Origin: Natronomonas salsuginis
Lineage (GTDB): Archaea > Halobacteriota > Halobacteria > Halobacteriales > Haloarculaceae
Reading direction: 5' to 3'
Assembly (NCBI RefSeq): GCF_005239135.1
Contig: NZ_QKNX01000001.1
Location: 372,001 to 436,000, forward strand
Length of the DNA: 64,000 nucleotides
Shown: positions 2,293-10,000 of the stretch, piece by piece
Layout of the letters: every line of letters begins with the position of its first letter
Numbering within the stretch: position 1 is the first letter of the stretch
Position numbers and translations under genes: made by a program
The notes under the pieces: model-generated
Seen by the model: the letters and a program-made list of their open reading frames with translations, nothing else
What the model was told of the DNA's origin: nothing
Databases searched by the model: none

Positions 2293-2985
2293 TCAGATCA
2301 CGAGCGTGACGGCGTCCGAGATCGCCGCGACGACGGTCTCCCAGACCGAGACGTCCATCGTCATGGCCAACACCGTGTCCGCGCCGAAGAACAGAAACAT
2401 CGCCGCGCCCGCAACGTGCGCTTTCCGCACGTCGAAGCGGCCGGCGAACCGATGGAAGAAGAACGCGTTCGCAAGGCTCACGGGAATGATCGCGAGCATC
2501 TCGCCGAGCCAGATGGCCGATCCGGCCGAGTATTGTGCGGCGAGCCCGATCGTGACGAGTTGGGTCTTGTCACCGAACTCGCCCGCGGCCATCATCGCGA
2601 AGATCGGCAGGAACGTCCCGAACCGATCGGGTATCTCACGACCGAGGACGGAGATCTCGCCGTCCACGCCCGGGAGTCCGCCGTCGGTCGTGGTCCCGTC
2701 GTCGTTTCGCTCTGGCATCGATCGCCACAGCAGGACGCCGAAGAGAAAGAACAGCCCGGCGGTGATCCCGTCGAGGACGAGCGGCGAAAGCACGCGTTGG
2801 AGTGTCTGGCCGAACCAGACTTCGAGGGCGGTCCAGCCCGCGAAGGCGCTCGCCGCCGCGGCGACGACGACGAGCGGATTGTATCGCGTCGAGAGTCCGG
2901 CGATGATAAACTGCACCTTCTCGCCGGGCAGCACCGCCAACTGGGCGACGAACGCGATGACGAGTACCTCGAACCATTCGGTCAT
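2293..2985 (-). CDS. GDT1/TMEM165 (UPF0016) family cation transporter
   Basis: A 230-residue integral membrane protein with about six hydrophobic segments arranged as two repeats around a hydrophilic loop (residues 88-122). The second repeat has the family signature E136-F-G-D-K-T-Q. The first repeat has L-P-G-E-K-V-Q at 19-25 instead of the canonical E-x-G-D-K-T. Family members exchange Mn2+ or Ca2+ for protons. The asymmetric pair of motifs is visible here, and its effect on ion selectivity is unknown. The gene is convergent with nothing and divergent from the small gene at 3131. Confidence 0.8.
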   Translation of the reverse strand: MTEWFEVLVIAFVAQLAVLPGEKVQFIIAGLSTRYNPLVVVAAAASAFAGWTALEVWFGQTLQRVLSPLVLDGITAGLFFLFGVLLWRSMPERNDDGTTTDGGLPGVDGEISVLGREIPDRFGTFLPIFAMMAAGEFGDKTQLVTIGLAAQYSAGSAIWLGEMLAIIPVSLANAFFFHRFAGRFDVRKAHVAGAAMFLFFGADTVLAMTMDVSVWETVVAAISDAVTLVI

Positions 2986-3130
2986 CGCTCGGTCACCGCC
3001 ATCGATCCCCCCGCGACTCGACAGCCCTCATCACGCAGGAGTTATCGAGTCCGACGCTTAAGCGTTCATTTCCGTCGCCGCGGTCGAGCGGAACGAAACC
3101 CACTTCCGCGCGCCCGACCCACCCGCGGGT

Positions 3131-3466
3131 ATGGGACTCGACGAACTCTCCGACGATATCGACGCGACGTACGCCGACCTCGGCGAGGAGCTCTCGGTGG
3201 CACTCGACACCGAAACGCGGAACGAACTGGCGATGCTCGAAAGTGTCTACGATCCAGACGAGACGGACGAACTCGTCCGACGCGCGATCCACATGCTGTT
3301 CCAGACCGCCGTCGACACCGGCAATCTCGACTTTCACCTTCGAAGCGGCTACGACGTAACGTACGACGAGTATTTAATGGGCATGACGATGGATACTTAC
3401 AACGAACAACCACAGCAACAACAATACCCTCCCCAAGACGATAACGCTCGCCGATATCAATTTTGA
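3131..3466 (+). CDS. Small conserved haloarchaeal protein; 3' end supplied by an integrated element
   Basis: An acidic, soluble 111-residue protein, mostly alpha-helical, with a Gln/Pro-rich tail (residues 95-103) and the C-terminus D-D-N-A-R-R-Y-Q-F. Its function is not recognised. The last third uses AT-rich codons unlike the first two thirds. The same nine C-terminal residues and stop reappear at 7830-7859 with GC-rich synonymous codons. I read this as an integration into the gene's 3' end, where the element replaced the end without changing the encoded residues. The start at 3131 follows a GC-rich leader and fits the codon bias. Confidence 0.75.
   Translation: MGLDELSDDIDATYADLGEELSVALDTETRNELAMLESVYDPDETDELVRRAIHMLFQTAVDTGNLDFHLRSGYDVTYDEYLMGMTMDTYNEQPQQQQYPPQDDNARRYQF
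3437..3466 (+). other. attL-like copy of the duplicated gene 3' end
   Basis: The 30 bases encode D-D-N-A-R-R-Y-Q-F-stop in frame with the 111-residue gene. Compared with 7830-7859 there are five differences, each at a third codon position (GAT/GAC, GCT/GCG, CGA/CGC, TAT/TAC, CAA/CAG), and all are synonymous. The bias of this copy matches the AT-rich element, so this is probably the element-derived copy. Confidence 0.65.
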
Positions 3467-3524
3467 ATCCGGGTGTGGAGGTTCGGAGAGATTAGTGAAC
3501 AGAAACAACAACCGCTGACTACAC

Positions 3525-3826
3525 CAGTGTAAAACTCAACGGGGGTGTTTTACGGCATTTTACAGGGGTGTAAAACGAAAAACCACAACAGTGCGATACA
3601 ATCAAGCCACCACTTTACGCATTTTACACTTCTGTGTTGGAGGGGTATGTGTTGCAGGTGCGTGTTCCCGCGCGTGCCAGAGATGCCTCTGCCACAAGAG
3701 CGTAAAATCCGTAAACCGGTACACTAATCCCTTGATACCGTGGGTTAGAGCGGTTGAGAAATTCGAATAGCGTTTTACACCCCCATGTAAAACGGGTGTA
3801 AAATGCGTAAACCGATTTACGCCAGT
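3525..3826. repeat. Cluster of GTGTAAAA/TTTTACRC short repeats in both orientations
   Basis: At least ten copies of a 7-9 bp word close to GTGTAAAAC (or its complement) lie within 300 bases, in groups at about 3525-3580, 3615-3630, 3700-3716 and 3771-3826. Some pair into palindromes, for example GTTTTAC-N8-GTAAAAC near 3771-3792. The cluster sits directly inside the left attachment copy. Arm-type integrase binding sites, iterons or operator clusters all look like this; the position next to the attachment site favours the first. Confidence 0.5.
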
Positions 3827-4017
3827 CGCCCCAGATAGCCATCATAGTATCAATGGATTCATCTAGCTGTTCAATCATAATTTCGTAGTCGGTGTGGCTG
3901 TGGGTCGTATGGTTTGAAAAAGCCGAATTCACCGCGTTTGGCTCAAATCAGCGGTGCTTATTTGTTCTTTATCACACACTTATCTGTTGATTAGTATTCC
4001 AACTGTGTAAGTGTTAG

Positions 4018-4224
4018 TCCAGTGGCGGGAAGAAATGGAGACCGAAAACCGCGCGCGAATCACTAGAATCGCCGGATGGGTATCTGGATCGGTTGCCGGA
4101 GAGCGACTATTACGAAGGGAAGCAGGCCGAAGCCGAGTGCATGGCGATTGAACAGGGCTACCACCCGGACGACGGGCCGGCTGCCGAGGGCGATACGTCG
4201 AATGGAACGATCAACCCGCTGTAG
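4018..4224 (+). pseudogene. C-terminal fragment of an unknown gene
   Basis: After a stop at about 4015 an open frame of about 68 codons ends with TAG at 4222-4224. It encodes a typical haloarchaeal acidic tail (D-G-Y-L-D-R-L-P-E-S-D-Y-Y-E-G-K, then A-E-G-D-T-S-N-G-T-I-N-P-L) but has no plausible start codon. Its GC content is higher than the surrounding element. I take it as the broken end of a gene just upstream of the integrase remnant. The family is not recognised. Confidence 0.4.
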
Positions 4225-4438
4225 GCGCACTTAGCAGAACATCGAAGTCACGAGGAACAAGCATCAGTATCGACTGAACAAATTTCTCGACTTCACCGAG
4301 GAGCAAGAGTTGAACGACGTTTCCGAACTCACCGGAATGCACGTCGAACAATTCAGACAGACGCTTGGCGCGAGAGGGTGGAATCCCTTGCGCAAGTGTC
4401 GGATAGCTCAGAGTGGTGCTTCTCGTGCGATTTGTAGC
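4225..4438 (+). pseudogene. Tyrosine integrase N-terminal (core-binding) fragment, frameshifted
   Basis: Two adjoining frames give A-H-L-A-E-H-R-S-H-E-E-Q and then Y-R-L-N-K-F-L-D-F-T-E-E-Q-E-L-N-D-V-S-E-L-T-G, shifted by one frame near 4264-4268. Together they match the SAM-like core-binding domain of haloarchaeal phage-type integrases (a Y-R-L-x-x-F-L-x-F-x-x-E block followed by L-x-x-L-T-G). The catalytic domain is missing: the frame continues with unrelated residues and no R...HxxR...Y set. It is a relic of the enzyme that presumably inserted this element. Confidence 0.55.
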
Positions 4439-4771
4439 ATACAAACTACCTCGATCGGCTGTCTCCTATTTAGATCATATATCCATCTTCGTTAGCCAAT
4501 TGTTTGTTATAAAACATTAAATTTCATAATGGTTAGCTCAGATTCAGCAACATTGTCTGATCCTCAGCGTTGTGTTTGAGTTGTAATCGAACAAAGATGT
4601 GTATAAAAGAACTATGTTCAGCGTGGTTCTAGTGGCACAGGTTTGCCACATAAGGCATTTTAATCAAGAACTTGGTAGAGATTGTGTAAGATGGTGTGAA
4701 TTAGTCATCAGAATTAAAATGGCCATATCAACACACAATATGAATTTAAAACGATTTGAGCCTATGTGTGG

Positions 4772-5476
4772 TTATAGTATTAAATAATAAATAACAGCAA
4801 AAAGACCAACTACAATAACACCAATAATTACAGTAGCTTGTATAATCGCGAGAACCGCTTCCCCCGAACCCATAGACCCGTCTCCTGTTAGTGAATTGTA
4901 TCCCTCTATCCCCCGTACAATTGTTTTGGCGACCTCTTCAATCCCATCACTGTCATCAAGGCCACCTGCTGAGCCCGCAGTCTTGTCAGATAAATAACTG
5001 TCTGCTGCCTTACCCTCGCCGTAATTCGATTTGGATTTATGAATAAACTTTACTGGTGCAGAATTTGGATCCATTCCCATGTTTGATCCATTTTCATAAT
5101 CATTTTTTAATTTCCTCCAACCATCCATATCATCAATTCCACATGCAAGGGCAATTACGTGGGTATACTCTTTTTTATATTCCTCAATCTGTCCACGCAG
5201 TTTCTTTGTCTGGCTATTATTGAGATCGCGCTTTAGCTCAATACCAATTGACCCATTAACGACCACATCTCCATTGACGTTGCCATGTTCACGTTCTACA
5301 ATAATATCGTTTTTTTCTGCAAACATCATGGAACTACCTTCGTTTAATCGCTGATCTAAATACTCCTGTAACTCGTTTTGAAACTTAGACTCGTGGCCAT
5401 ATGCCTTTGAAGGATTCCAGTGTTCGATTGCTGATGCGACCTTACGTGCAAGCTGCTGATTATTCCCTAGTGACAT
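4772..5476 (-). CDS. Membrane-anchored PD-(D/E)XK nuclease-like protein
   Basis: A 234-residue protein from an AT-rich gene. The N-terminal 110 residues carry the spaced residues of the restriction-endonuclease fold: E29/E35 in a first helix, D70 in a G-D-V-V-V strand, E80-L-K82 in the next strand, and Q97 with Y100 in the following helix. Residues 120-205 are a polar, Gly/Ser/Asp-rich linker. Residues 209-233 form a single strongly hydrophobic helix at the extreme C-terminus, so the domain would be tail-anchored with the nuclease part in the cytosol. The function is unknown; defence or element maintenance is an inference. Neighbouring open frames are short relics. Confidence 0.6.
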   Translation of the reverse strand: MSLGNNQQLARKVASAIEHWNPSKAYGHESKFQNELQEYLDQRLNEGSSMMFAEKNDIIVEREHGNVNGDVVVNGSIGIELKRDLNNSQTKKLRGQIEEYKKEYTHVIALACGIDDMDGWRKLKNDYENGSNMGMDPNSAPVKFIHKSKSNYGEGKAADSYLSDKTAGSAGGLDDSDGIEEVAKTIVRGIEGYNSLTGDGSMGSGEAVLAIIQATVIIGVIVVGLFAVIYYLIL

Positions 5477-5670
5477 CTATTTATATATGTTTATAAACTC
5501 TCAAATGCTTATCTTAATAATATTTACACTTTTGCCCCGAACGGGGGGTCTAATTCCCCCGCTATTGCCCCGTTATTGTCCTTTTATACACACAGACGGC
5601 TAAATGTTCGGCTAGTAAAATCCGAACCTGATATGGAATCAATACACAGCGAGAAAGAATTTATAATAGG

Positions 5671-5808
5671 TTAGTCGTCTTGATTATCAATTGCCTCTTT
5701 TTCTCTTTCACGGGCATTATCTCCGTATTCTAAAACGAAATCCCAAAGCAGGTCATACGGTTCATCCGCATTACCTCTAGGATCTATCGGCGAAAGTATT
5801 GATTGCAC
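5671..5808 (-). CDS. Short acidic open frame, possibly a broken gene
   Basis: From a GTG at 5806-5808 the frame encodes 45 residues ending E-K-E-A-I-D-N-Q-D-D. The same frame is open for about 18 codons further upstream (A-G-N-D-D-P-K-G-D-R-G-T-E-F) but has no start there. An ATG at 5877-5879 lies in another frame, so a single-base change may have broken a gene of about 70 codons. The composition is typical of a halophilic protein. It is divergent from the lipoprotein gene. The stretch 5480-5670 holds no gene that I can see, only AT-rich DNA with a G/C-run hairpin near 5537-5570. Confidence 0.3.
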   Translation of the reverse strand: MQSILSPIDPRGNADEPYDLLWDFVLEYGDNAREREKEAIDNQDD

Positions 5809-5930
5809 GACCGTGAATTCTGTTCCCCGGTCCCCTTTCGGATCGTCGTTCCCCGCGAACTTCTACTTCCCCGAGACATGGTTTATCTGATGAAATGAAA
5901 CATAAAAAACCAAGGGGTGAGTGGATTTGC

Positions 5931-5958
5931 TACAACGACTGAACGCCGGTACTGTCGC
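5931..5958. repeat. 28-bp direct repeat, left copy
   Basis: This 28-bp sequence recurs at 6723-6750 with two mismatches, on either side of the lipoprotein gene. After each copy there is a weaker shared word close to TTCGG-N2-CAGATGGT (about 5978 and 6799). The pair may mark an insertion or a duplication that brought the lipoprotein gene in. Confidence 0.5.
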
Positions 5959-6037
5959 CGAGGCCAAAGTCGGCGGGTTCGGAGCAGATGGTTACTCTAA
6001 TCCAAAATATAATACCATTAAAAGGTACATTAGCAGT

Positions 6038-6718
6038 ATGAAACGCCGGAAGTTCGTGGCGACTTCGGGGGCGGCGCTCCTCGCGGGTTGTAATGAAATT
6101 CAAGGACCCGACCCCGACCCCGATGATCCTCGCCCCCCCGAAAACGTATCAGAAGAAGAATCACCAGAGAGCGGTCCGGTGGGGGATGTCGAAATTAAAC
6201 AATTTGAATGGATTATTGACGGGAAAATATCTCAATTCCTTCTAAGTAATGTCGGTGAGGCTCCGGCTGGTCGGGTAACGCTGGTCGTTCAATGGTTTGA
6301 TGCAAACGGGAATTATATCGGGAGTGATCAAGCGTCCTTACCGGTTCTCCCTCCACAAACTGCATGGCTCATAGAAATTGAATCCTCGGTGCCCTTTGAG
6401 ACTGATAGTTTTGATGGGTATGTCGAATTTGACCCTCAATATGAGATGGATGACCTCCCCGTCGAATCACTTGATATTGATCAAAGTGTGCCCGGAGTTA
6501 CGGGTATTGCCCCCCTCGACCGCGACAGCGAAACGGCAATTCAGGCAACGGTTCTTACATTTAATTCTGGGTGGGTGACACACGCGGGGCAGATTACTGA
6601 AAACCATATCCCTGAAAGTACAAATTGGCGGTTTTTAATCCCCCTTACGCAAGTCGGGGGTGATGAATCGTCGATAGGAGACGACGAAATAGAACTCTAC
6701 TTTTCACTTCTTGAATAG
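6038..6718 (+). CDS. Tat-exported lipoprotein of unknown function
   Basis: The start is placed at 6038, not the upstream ATG of the open frame, because it gives a compact signal peptide: M-K-R-R-K-F, a hydrophobic stretch, then the lipobox L-L-A-G-C at residues 14-18. The twin arginines fit the Tat route used by most haloarchaeal lipoproteins. The mature part (about 208 residues) begins with an acidic, Pro-rich linker (D-P-D-P-D-D-P) and continues as beta-rich sequence resembling a FxLyD/CARDB-like extracytoplasmic domain (V-G-D-V-E-I-K-Q-F, then N-V-G-E-A-P-A-G-R-V-T). It is probably attached to the outer face of the membrane. It is flanked by a 28-bp direct repeat. Confidence 0.65.
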   Translation: MKRRKFVATSGAALLAGCNEIQGPDPDPDDPRPPENVSEEESPESGPVGDVEIKQFEWIIDGKISQFLLSNVGEAPAGRVTLVVQWFDANGNYIGSDQASLPVLPPQTAWLIEIESSVPFETDSFDGYVEFDPQYEMDDLPVESLDIDQSVPGVTGIAPLDRDSETAIQATVLTFNSGWVTHAGQITENHIPESTNWRFLIPLTQVGGDESSIGDDEIELYFSLLE

Positions 6719-6722
6719 AGGT

Positions 6723-6750
6723 TACAACGACTGCACGCCGGTACTTTCGC
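6723..6750. repeat. 28-bp direct repeat, right copy
   Basis: Second copy of the sequence at 5931-5958, starting four bases after the lipoprotein stop codon. It differs at two positions. Confidence 0.5.
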
Positions 6751-6886
6751 TACCCCTAAGATATATAATCTGACGCTTTACTAAAATCGGTATGGGGAAG
6801 AATTCGGCTCAGATGGTAAACCAGCAACCCAGAGAGTAAACTTAGCCGCGGAGAGTAAGTGGTGGATATTTCATTTTATAATCACG

Positions 6887-7180
6887 ATGTACATTCCGGC
6901 TATTTTTATTGCTCTTGCAATAACTCCATATCTCCCGGTGGCTATCGCCGATACGCTTCTATTCAGTTTGGTGGGTGTGGCTTTTATTGCAGTCTGGGGG
7001 TCATTAATCGGCTACCATGCCGAAGCCAGAATCATGAAAGAAAACAACGCCGACTGGGTGCCGGGAACGTGGCTTTATACTATCGGTCACTTCTTAATAA
7101 CACCATTTGTCGCCGCCCCGATCTACTTGATAGACCGATGGCTTGCTATTGGGATTGATTGGAGTCATCTAAAATTGTAG
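6887..7180 (+). CDS. Small membrane protein, three hydrophobic segments
   Basis: A 97-residue protein with hydrophobic helices at about 3-18, 22-43 and 66-90, separated by a short charged loop (E-A-R-I-M-K-E-N-N-A-D). No motif identifies it. The ATG at 6887 follows AT-rich DNA and begins directly with the first helix. It lies within the integrated element and is convergent with another small membrane protein of similar size at 7241-7567; the two share no obvious sequence. Confidence 0.5.
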   Translation: MYIPAIFIALAITPYLPVAIADTLLFSLVGVAFIAVWGSLIGYHAEARIMKENNADWVPGTWLYTIGHFLITPFVAAPIYLIDRWLAIGIDWSHLKL

Positions 7181-7218
7181 GAGACGGTGATTTAGTTATT
7201 TGCTGATGGGAGCTGCTT

Positions 7219-7231
7219 GAGGCCGACCTCG
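7219..7231. repeat. 13-bp direct repeat flanking a 382-bp insert, left copy
   Basis: GAGGCCGACCTCG occurs here and at 7614-7626, exactly flanking the segment that contains the 108-residue membrane protein gene. It looks like a target-site duplication. Confidence 0.4.
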
Positions 7232-7240
7232 TTTTACCGG

Positions 7241-7567
7241 TTAGTTCTCGAACACTCGCCCTGTCGATGACCACCGCATGACGACCCACAGGAGGGTCAC
7301 AGGCCACGATGTGAAGATCAACTGGCCGATGATCCACGGCCACGCCCGTTGAGACCACGCGATATTATTGTCGCCTGCGGTTCTCCAGTAGGTGAAAAAT
7401 GATGCTAATCCCGAAACGACTGTAGCAAGAAAAAACAACCACCCGACTGCGGCAAACAGTTCGCCAATGGGGTTATTGATCCTAGAAGCTATTATTAACA
7501 CAACGGCGATAGGAAACGAAATCGTATGCATCACCGGCCACGGAAGCTTCATAAACCGCTTGAGCAT
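7241..7567 (-). CDS. Small membrane protein, three hydrophobic segments
   Basis: A 108-residue protein. Hydrophobic helices lie at about 10-28, 36-58 and 78-97, with tryptophan-rich boundaries (S-Q-R-A-W-P-W-I-I-G-Q). Start and stop are clean and the gene fills almost all of a 382-bp segment bounded by a 13-bp direct repeat. No homology is recognised. It may be a recent insertion into an older open frame whose remains are seen at both sides. Confidence 0.5.
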   Translation of the reverse strand: MLKRFMKLPWPVMHTISFPIAVVLIIASRINNPIGELFAAVGWLFFLATVVSGLASFFTYWRTAGDNNIAWSQRAWPWIIGQLIFTSWPVTLLWVVMRWSSTGRVFEN

Positions 7568-7611
7568 ACTATTTTTCGGCCCCCATCCGTATTAAAATCG
7601 ATTAAACTTTA

Positions 7612-7829
7612 TCGAGGCCGACCTCGGGGAGGTGACCGATCGCGCCGACGCCGAGGCCGCGAGCGCCCAGCGCCGACCGGATCACGCTCCAGTCGGACAC
7701 GTCGGCAATCCGCTCATACTATCTCCCCTCCTCTAGTTGCCGCTGGTTTTCTTCGGGGGCCTCATGAACCGTCGTCACACCCTCTTTGATTACTAATTGT
7801 GTCGTGTTATCGAACTCCGACGTACCAAC
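7612..7829 (-). pseudogene. Decayed open frame interrupted by stops and by the small membrane gene
   Basis: Reading leftward, one frame gives G-T-S-E-F-D-N-T-T-Q-L-V-I-K-E-G and ends at a TAG near 7720. The same frame continues as Y-E-R-I-A-D-V-S-D-W-S-V-I-R-S-A-L-G-A-R-G and then G-H-L-P-E-V-G-L. At the other side of the 382-bp insert, E-V-G-L-K-Q-L-P-S-A-N-N-stop (about 7193-7231) continues in the matching phase. This suggests one ancestral gene split by insertion. The family is not recognised. Confidence 0.35.
7614..7626. repeat. 13-bp direct repeat flanking a 382-bp insert, right copy
   Basis: Second copy of GAGGCCGACCTCG (see 7219-7231). No terminal inverted repeats were found just inside the two copies. 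Confidence 0.4.
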
Positions 7830-7859
7830 GACGACAACGCGCGCCGCTACCAGTTTTGA
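7830..7859 (+). other. attR-like copy of the duplicated gene 3' end
   Basis: It encodes D-D-N-A-R-R-Y-Q-F-stop with GC-rich codons, the presumed original chromosomal 3' end of the gene now starting at 3131. Upstream similarity to that gene stops immediately before this block, as expected for a recombination junction. Confidence 0.65.
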
Positions 7860-7889: not shown

Positions 7890-9068
7890 CTACCAGACGA
7901 ACCGAAACAGCGCGGTGAACGCCACGTAGGCCCCGACCGTCGAGATGATCGGGACGACGTTTTGCATGATTATCACGCGCCCGGTCGTCGTGGGGTCGAA
8001 CAGATCCGCTGCGCCCGGGATGTCCGCGGGGTCTTCCTCCCCGATCGGCGGCGCTTTCTCCCCGGGCTGTTCTGCGGCCAGCGCACCGACGGAGACGTTC
8101 GTTTCCTGCTCTCCGCGGACGACCTCTGGGATGGTCGATGTTCGGGTTGCACGCCCCCAGCCGAGCCCCACGATGGACGTCGTCGCGATGATCACGAACG
8201 AGGCCGGAATACCGATCGCCGAGAGCCCGACGACGATCGTCGAGGAGATGATCGCGACGACGATGGCCGCGGTCAGCGGCAGTTCCGTGATGTCATTGCC
8301 GAGCGTATCGAGCGTCCGTCGGGCGATGGTGAACGCGCCGACCGCGACGGCGGCGCAGCCGAGCAGGATCATCAGGTCGATGTCGACGCCGGCCCCGACG
8401 AGCGGTGCGATGGCGTTCGCGATGTTCGAGGTCCCCGACGAGAAGGCCATCAGACAGCCGATACCGACGACGATGACGGCCCCCGTGAGTTCCCGTCGGG
8501 TGGTGTTAGGCCCGGGCGTCGGTCGTGGGACGACCCCGGTTCGGTCGATCTCGACCAACGGCCCGGGCGTCGTGGTGATCGCCACCCATCTGTTGATCCG
8601 CGTGTAGAAGTAGCGTCCGACCATCCCGGAGACCCAAAACCCCACGATCGGGGCGACGATCCACCAGACCGCGATCTCGCCCATCACGGCCCAGTTCAAC
8701 GCGTCCGTAGCGACGCCGAGCCCGGCGATCGCGCCGACGGCAGTCATCGACGTGGACGCGGGCACGCCGTAGTAGTTGCCGACGAACAGCGCGCCGCCGA
8801 TAAAAAACAGCACCACGATGCTGGATTCGATGGTGAACACGCCGGGGTCGGTGACCAAGTCGTTCCCCAGCGTGTCGACGACCTGTCTCCCGATCGTCCA
8901 GCCGCCGATCAAAAAGAAGGCCGACATCAGCGCAGCAGCGCCGGTCTTCGAGATCGCGCCCGCACCGACGGCCGGACCGAAGGCCGGACCCGTAGTCGCC
9001 CCACCGATGTTGAACCCCACGAAGAGGGCGACGACGATACCGACGGCAAGCAAGAGGAGTTCGAACAC
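7890..9068 (-). CDS. pitA: PiT-family inorganic phosphate permease
   Basis: A 392-residue membrane protein of the PHO4/PiT family, which imports phosphate (often as metal-phosphate) with H+ or Na+. It has about ten hydrophobic helices and the two inverted family repeats. N-I-G-G-A-T-T-G-P at about 20-28 corresponds to the first G-A-N-D-V-A-N signature, and G-T-S-N-I-A-N-A-I-A-P to the second. The first signature is diverged (no Asp), as in many archaeal members. The central loop (about residues 320-350) is acidic and hydrophilic. It stands alone, with phoU and AbrB-PhoU genes 20 kb away in the same window. Confidence 0.85.
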   Translation of the reverse strand: MFELLLLAVGIVVALFVGFNIGGATTGPAFGPAVGAGAISKTGAAALMSAFFLIGGWTIGRQVVDTLGNDLVTDPGVFTIESSIVVLFFIGGALFVGNYYGVPASTSMTAVGAIAGLGVATDALNWAVMGEIAVWWIVAPIVGFWVSGMVGRYFYTRINRWVAITTTPGPLVEIDRTGVVPRPTPGPNTTRRELTGAVIVVGIGCLMAFSSGTSNIANAIAPLVGAGVDIDLMILLGCAAVAVGAFTIARRTLDTLGNDITELPLTAAIVVAIISSTIVVGLSAIGIPASFVIIATTSIVGLGWGRATRTSTIPEVVRGEQETNVSVGALAAEQPGEKAPPIGEEDPADIPGAADLFDPTTTGRVIIMQNVVPIISTVGAYVAFTALFRFVW

Positions 9069-9205
9069 ACTAGAAACACTCGTCGGACGCTATTAAACGA
9101 CCCCATCCGCGTCAGGGCACGAACGCGAATGGAGGCCTTTTCCCGTCACGGGACCGATTGTTCGGGTATGACATCAACGACTACACTGGCAGGGGTCGAT
9201 ATCCG

Positions 9206-10000
9206 ATGAACCCGAAACGCGTCGACTTCATCGTCGATCTCGCCTACGGTGTCGCGATCCTCGCCGCCATCGCGCTGATCGTCGTCGTTGAGACGGGGAT
9301 CGGTATCGCGTTCGGGCTCGGTGTGATCCTCTCGTACGTCATCCACATCGTGTGGAAGATGGCCCGCTTCGATCCGGACTGGATGACGAGAGAGGTCGCG
9401 GATCGAGTCGAGAAGACGGTCGGCGACACAGTGGGTAAAGAGGTCGAGAAGACGGTCGGCGAAACGGTCGGTAAGGAGGTCGAGAAGACGGTCGGCAAGG
9501 AGGTCGAAAAGACCGTCGGGGACACGGTGAGCAAAGAAGTCGAGAAGACCGTCAGCGACACGGTGAGCAAAGAAGTCGAAAAGACGGTCGAGGACACGGT
9601 GAGCAAGGAGTTCGAGAAGACCGTCGAGGACACCGTCGGCAAGGAAGTGGAGAAATCTGTGGGCGAAAAAGTCGAGGAGACAGTCGGTGAGACAGTCGAG
9701 AAGACTGTCGAAGAAACGGTCGGTGAGACGGTCGAGAAGACCGTCGAGGAGACGGTTGGCGAAAAGGTCGAAGAAACCGTGGAGGAGACGGTCGAAGAAA
9801 CCGTGGAGGAGACGGTTGGCGAAAAGGTCGAAGAAACCGTGGAGGAGACGGTTGGCGAAAAGGTCGAAGAAACTGTGGAGGAGACGGTTGGCGAAAAGGT
9901 CGAAGAAACTGTGGAGGAGACGGTCGAAGAAACCGTCGACGAAAAAGTCGAAGAAACCGTTAAAAAAGCAGTTGACGAGGGCGACGACGAGTCGCAGTAG
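9206..10000 (+). CDS. Two-helix membrane protein with a long V-E-x-T-V repeat tail
   Basis: Starting at 9206 (a better start than 9158, since M-N-P-K-R leads straight into the first helix) gives 264 residues. Hydrophobic helices lie at about 12-28 and 30-49. From about residue 66 to 255 the chain is a tandem repeat, first with the unit V-E-K-T-V-G-D-T-V-G-K-E, then degenerating to V-E-E-T-V-G-E-K and V-E-E-T. Valines recur every fourth position, alternating with Glu/Lys, which predicts a long charged amphipathic helix or rod on one side of the membrane. The DNA repeats are near-identical at 9760-9930 and are prone to slippage. The function is unknown. Confidence 0.7.
   Translation: MNPKRVDFIVDLAYGVAILAAIALIVVVETGIGIAFGLGVILSYVIHIVWKMARFDPDWMTREVADRVEKTVGDTVGKEVEKTVGETVGKEVEKTVGKEVEKTVGDTVSKEVEKTVSDTVSKEVEKTVEDTVSKEFEKTVEDTVGKEVEKSVGEKVEETVGETVEKTVEETVGETVEKTVEETVGEKVEETVEETVEETVEETVGEKVEETVEETVGEKVEETVEETVGEKVEETVEETVEETVDEKVEETVKKAVDEGDDESQ

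Follow-up and report, generated by a model that had tools for sequence, protein, structure and literature searches.

A decayed mobile element very probably accounts for a 4.4-kb stretch of AT-rich DNA in Natronomonas salsuginis: it would have integrated in a gene for a 111-residue protein, re-supplied the 3′ end of that gene and displaced the native end. The gene (3131–3466, + strand of the window, i.e. the whole 64,000-nucleotide stretch of DNA analysed) is now a chimera of a native body and an element-supplied tail. Its product is conserved throughout the haloarchaea (homologues in 69 of 79 relatives); a variable linker precedes its invariant C-terminal RRYQF, which the intact reading frame in the window has kept. 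Pfam and NCBIfam yielded no named family for the protein, and its structure model, with a mean pLDDT of 57, was too weak for use. The host flank consists upstream of a gene for a 230-residue membrane protein (2293–2985, − strand), which shows 80–82% identity by tblastn in L020/L024 and adjoins the 111-residue gene in the relatives G003 and G019 too, and downstream of a PiT-type transporter gene (7890–9068, − strand), for which a 90% identical protein is encoded 9.7 kb downstream of the 111-residue gene in G003.

A foreign tail and a displaced native end

A preliminary description of this DNA had reported that the last nine codons and the stop of the gene recur downstream with synonymous changes, which our analysis confirmed. 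The left copy of this 30-bp block (3437–3466, + strand; GACGATAACGCTCGCCGATATCAATTTTGA) forms the end of the present tail, and the right copy (7830–7859) reads GACGACAACGCGCGCCGCTACCAGTTTTGA. Both encode DDNARRYQF followed by the stop, being equal at 25 of 30 positions with all five differences in third positions. About 2e-5 matches of this quality are expected by chance in the window, where the next best match to the block on either strand is 19/30. For five mismatches placed at random in 30 bases, the probability that all fall on third positions is ~0.2% (C(10,5)/C(30,5)).

The origin of the two copies was assessed by comparison with G003, which is syntenic with the window on both sides of the insert. 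In blastn, homology extends over 2728–3387, breaks, returns at 7829–7859 on the end of the G003 gene itself (27/31 positions, 87%) and continues in the PiT gene from 7891. Because the homology breaks and resumes in this manner, the right copy represents the native 3′ end, displaced to 7828–7859 (+ strand), and the tail from ~3373 is foreign. The foreign part thereby begins well before position 3437. Furthermore, the right copy agrees with the native end of G004 at 28/30 positions, compared with 25/30 for the left copy.

The replacement 3′ end (3373–3466, + strand) encodes YLMGMTMDTYNEQPQQQQYPPQDDNARRYQF followed by a stop. Among the 56 haloarchaeal loci compared, a native tail of the form YL-SGMT(F/Y)xEM… is near-universal, whereas the ~90-bp alternative tail follows the pattern YL-MGxTMDTYNEQ… and reads YLMGMTMDTYNEQ… in the window, in AT-richer codons. 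The two tails are non-homologous over a linker of ~15 residues and agree in the last nine residues only. The earlier proposal that the element supplies a replacement 3′ end thus holds, with the present end foreign, positions 7830–7859 native and a decayed integrase-bearing element between them; the accompanying claim that the same peptide is re-supplied applies to the last nine residues and fails for the linker.

G003 and G019 are the nearest relatives of the window in the carboxyltransferase tree (branch 100/99), and both keep the native tail, YLSGMTYDEM…DDNARRYQF. Therefore the tail in the window is derived, and the change postdates the split from these relatives. Their GC-rich codons at this position agree with what had been anticipated for relatives without the insert. 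Together with ~50 other loci, all of them from other species rather than from strains of the window's own, these two genomes represent the uninterrupted site.

Content of the insert

As described before, the DNA between the two copies is AT-rich: between ~3.4 and 7.6 kb the GC content lies at 0.38–0.54, down from ~0.65, and beyond 7.9 kb it is back at 0.67. The reported integrase relic (4238–4405, + strand) proved real, if short, comprising the N-terminal SAM-like part of a tyrosine integrase only. Positions 4238–4489 match Phage_int_SAM_1 with E=0.011, below the Pfam cut-off, and 4238–4405 match the N-termini of haloarchaeal open frames of mostly 340–450 residues; such matches occur in a further 18 genomes of the family. 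No integrase with catalytic residues was found in the insert.

Four further open reading frames constitute the element cargo. One encodes a 234-residue nuclease-like protein (4772–5476, − strand; phrog_28707 nuclease, E=9e-6) that occurs sporadically in haloarchaea, being present in 18 of 146 genomes of the family with the window's own included. The second encodes a lipoprotein-like protein with an FxLYD domain (5921–6718, + strand; NCBIfam NF038353, E=4.6e-8). The ORF list and the Pfam, PHROGs and NCBIfam scans add two membrane-protein-like frames of 97 (6887–7180, + strand) and 108 residues (7241–7567, − strand). Comparing the conceptual proteins of the insert with the same three collections revealed no capsid, terminase or other virion protein above chance. 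Just inside the left junction, at 3520–3815, a dense cluster of GTAAAA/TTTTAC in direct and inverted order holds 9 of the 14 copies in the window, and possibly provides arm sites for the integrase or replication repeats. A 28-bp direct repeat with 93% identity (5931–5958 and 6723–6750, 792 bp apart) has the FxLYD frame between its copies.

A second occupied site

The metagenome-assembled genome (MAG) QS_8_69_26 contains a second, cleaner occupied site, which puts the crossover ~65 bp upstream of the 30-bp block. Its order is the gene with the alternative tail, an insert of 1.0 kb, the 13-bp sequence ACGACGAGTACCT and the displaced native remainder. The identical 13 bp, comprising the codons for DEYL, are found at the left junction, where the foreign tail begins; on the right side they encode, together with the native remainder, DEYLSGMTYAEMTGDPIDQVGDDNDRRYRF followed by a stop. 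This is the arrangement expected for an attL/attR pair with the crossover at the DEYL codons. The insert encodes a HalOD1 protein and a PadR-like regulator, no integrase was recognised in it, and it has no sequence in common with the insert of the window. The suspicion that a fragment next to the right junction of QS_8_69_26 represents the C-terminal part of an integrase found no support.

The window matches these junctions on its left side. The putative attL core (3363–3375, + strand; ACGACGAGTATTT) encodes DEYL as well, and agrees in its first 10 bases with the core that QS_8_69_26 has at both junctions. On the right side of the window no clear core is present. The sequence shared by both junctions there is ACGACGA only, a 7-mer common in this DNA (50 times on the + strand); at the start of the displaced end (7828–7859), it may be the leftover of an attR core after loss of the native linker. 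The preliminary description had taken the 30-bp block itself for the attachment site, an assignment that has to be abandoned given that homology to G003 breaks near 3387 and the core in QS_8_69_26 is located at DEYL.

The alternative tail in other species

The carriers of the alternative tail are four Natronomonas species (that of the window, G006, G007 and G011) and QS_8_69_26, a MAG from another family; their gene bodies are otherwise unrelated. Identity between alternative tail segments is 0.72–0.92, compared with at most 0.53 between alternative and native segments, while the third positions of the gene bodies at these loci are 42–66% identical. A single clade of the carriers was rejected by the MutY trees, both for all five (p-AU 5e-5) and for the four Natronomonas species (4e-4), and by the carboxyltransferase tree for the three alternative-tail species testable with it (0.012). 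Third-position GC of the linker was 0.48–0.68 for replacement tails and 0.74–1.00 for native tails in 26 genomes; in a wider sample two native tails were also low (0.56 and 0.59), and this measure alone fails to separate all tails there.

Displaced ends, matching at 26–28 of 30 positions, were confined to alternative-tail loci, where they occurred at two of five; all other loci reached at most 22, the level of shuffled sequence. In G007 no displaced end was seen within 19 kb, and in G006 and G011 none was seen on contigs that stop after 0.9 and 0.3 kb, too early to show one. A second copy was absent up to 15 kb downstream at the ~50 native-tail loci, in line with the earlier expectation that relatives without the element would not have both copies. 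When the genomes were surveyed for repeated use of the site as a hotspot, none of 391 had two DRRYQF ends followed by a stop.

The anticipated free virus or plasmid with the AT-rich tail did not emerge: the 34-residue alternative tail was not found in plasmids and phages, and viral contigs contained no free element according to the patterns DEYLM..TMD, TMD(T/S)(Y/F)N, and DNARRYQF or DDRRYQF followed by a stop. The sole match, L157, lies in an unrelated frame.

Proposed mechanism and alternative explanations

We propose that a mobile element would insert by site-specific recombination in the 3′ part of the gene, at the YDEYL codons, with an attachment site that brings a replacement for all ~90 bp downstream of the crossover. 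In codons richer in A and T, this replacement would encode another linker followed by the unchanged, invariant RRYQF end, so that joining it to the native body would yield an intact 111-residue protein and shift the native 3′ end beyond the element. Subsequent decay would have left a stub of the integrase and no more than the final 31 bp of the displaced native tail; at the right junction of the window, the linker was probably lost, perhaps by a deletion between GACGA repeats. All elements observed are decayed. We infer the action of a tyrosine integrase of the element only indirectly, because neither an intact integrase (at the window or the QS_8_69_26 site) nor a free element or an empty strain of the same species was found. 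The tail would be retained since the gene presumably needs its C-terminus. It is improbable that the foreign linker is functional beyond this, i.e. that one element family swaps the C-terminal tail for a version of altered function which is kept after loss of the element; such a tail could, e.g., block a second integration.

In a two-step course of events, the alternative linker would have entered the gene through a previous insertion or exchange, before the present element crossed over inside the 30-bp block. The sharp start of the window repeat at GACGAC, with no likeness to the native linker upstream of 7828, fits this course, as do the three other species that have the tail and no displaced copy seen. 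We nevertheless consider it unlikely, as the tail comes together with the insert in QS_8_69_26, whose core lies at DEYL, and both nearest relatives of the window have kept the native tail.

Haloarchaea recombine readily, and alternative tails might also have spread between species by homologous gene conversion, with the AT-rich DNA behind them being unrelated; indeed, neither an element nor a displaced end is recognisable beside the tail of G006 and G007. Gene conversion, however, does not place a native 3′ end on the far side of an insert, the arrangement seen at two independent loci, and the gene bodies stay divergent right up to the core, rendering this explanation very unlikely. Neither chance similarity nor a partial tandem duplication of the gene 3′ end with later, unrelated insertions has anything in its favour beyond the shortness of the repeat, and this explanation is practically negligible in view of the ~2e-5 chance expectation, the right copy being nearest to native ends of other species instead of the left copy, and the QS_8_69_26 locus, which already disfavours it.

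Relation to known integration systems

Integration with restoration of the 3′ end of a coding gene is established in bacteria and other archaea, and the replacement of the target gene 3′ end by attP has been stated as a general rule (PMC10111431); protein genes as archaeal targets have been reviewed (PMC8371274). In E. coli K-12, prophage e14 resides inside icd, where it brings a replacement 3′ part and displaces 165 bp of the native one, with 12 nucleotide changes and two conservative residue changes (PMC11148124). The window resembles this case in the insertion inside a protein gene, the element-borne 3′ part and the displaced native part. The e14 replacement, though, is a close homologue throughout, in contrast to the ~15-residue non-homologous linker and nine matching final residues observed here, and the element of the window is decayed and archaeal. 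The thaumarchaeal NitEve-E2 lies in a Zn-finger gene of Nitrososphaera evergladensis with a 13-bp att and replaces eight nucleotides including the stop (PMC6563490). It shares with the window an archaeal element in the 3′-distal part of a protein gene, the end of the frame being replaced by element sequence, and differs from it in these eight nucleotides compared with ~90 bp and a tail in five species. A survey of archaeal tailed viruses placed most of its haloarchaeal proviruses in tRNA genes (PMC8651126); integrase-mediated integration in haloarchaea would be common to them and the window, in contrast to the tRNA-gene sites that most of them use.

In our partial coverage of the literature, we found no publication describing this integration site. 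The target gene, the site, the largely non-homologous linker and its reappearance as a trace in five species from two families look new. They would add one more conserved protein gene to the integration targets of archaea, in a group whose proviruses have mostly been described from tRNA genes. In the form of an alternative gene tail, the trace of such an insertion can persist in species without a visible element. Alternative tails may accordingly serve as markers for past integrations and for the natural attachment site of an unknown integrase.

Variation around the proposed integration site

In another genus of the family, the locus L148 (G025) has a different aberrant tail, YLAGQTFGSEFGADDPLAATDDDRRYQF, which may be another replacement tail. 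The spot between the 111-residue gene and the PiT transporter varies in content between sister species: in G003 (L045, 744–10436) this gap is filled by a GC-rich cluster with two nosD/nosF/nosY-like sets. Further downstream in the window (9158–10000), a gene with long VEETVGEKVEETV-type repeats is present that is also found in G003, where the repeats are arranged differently.
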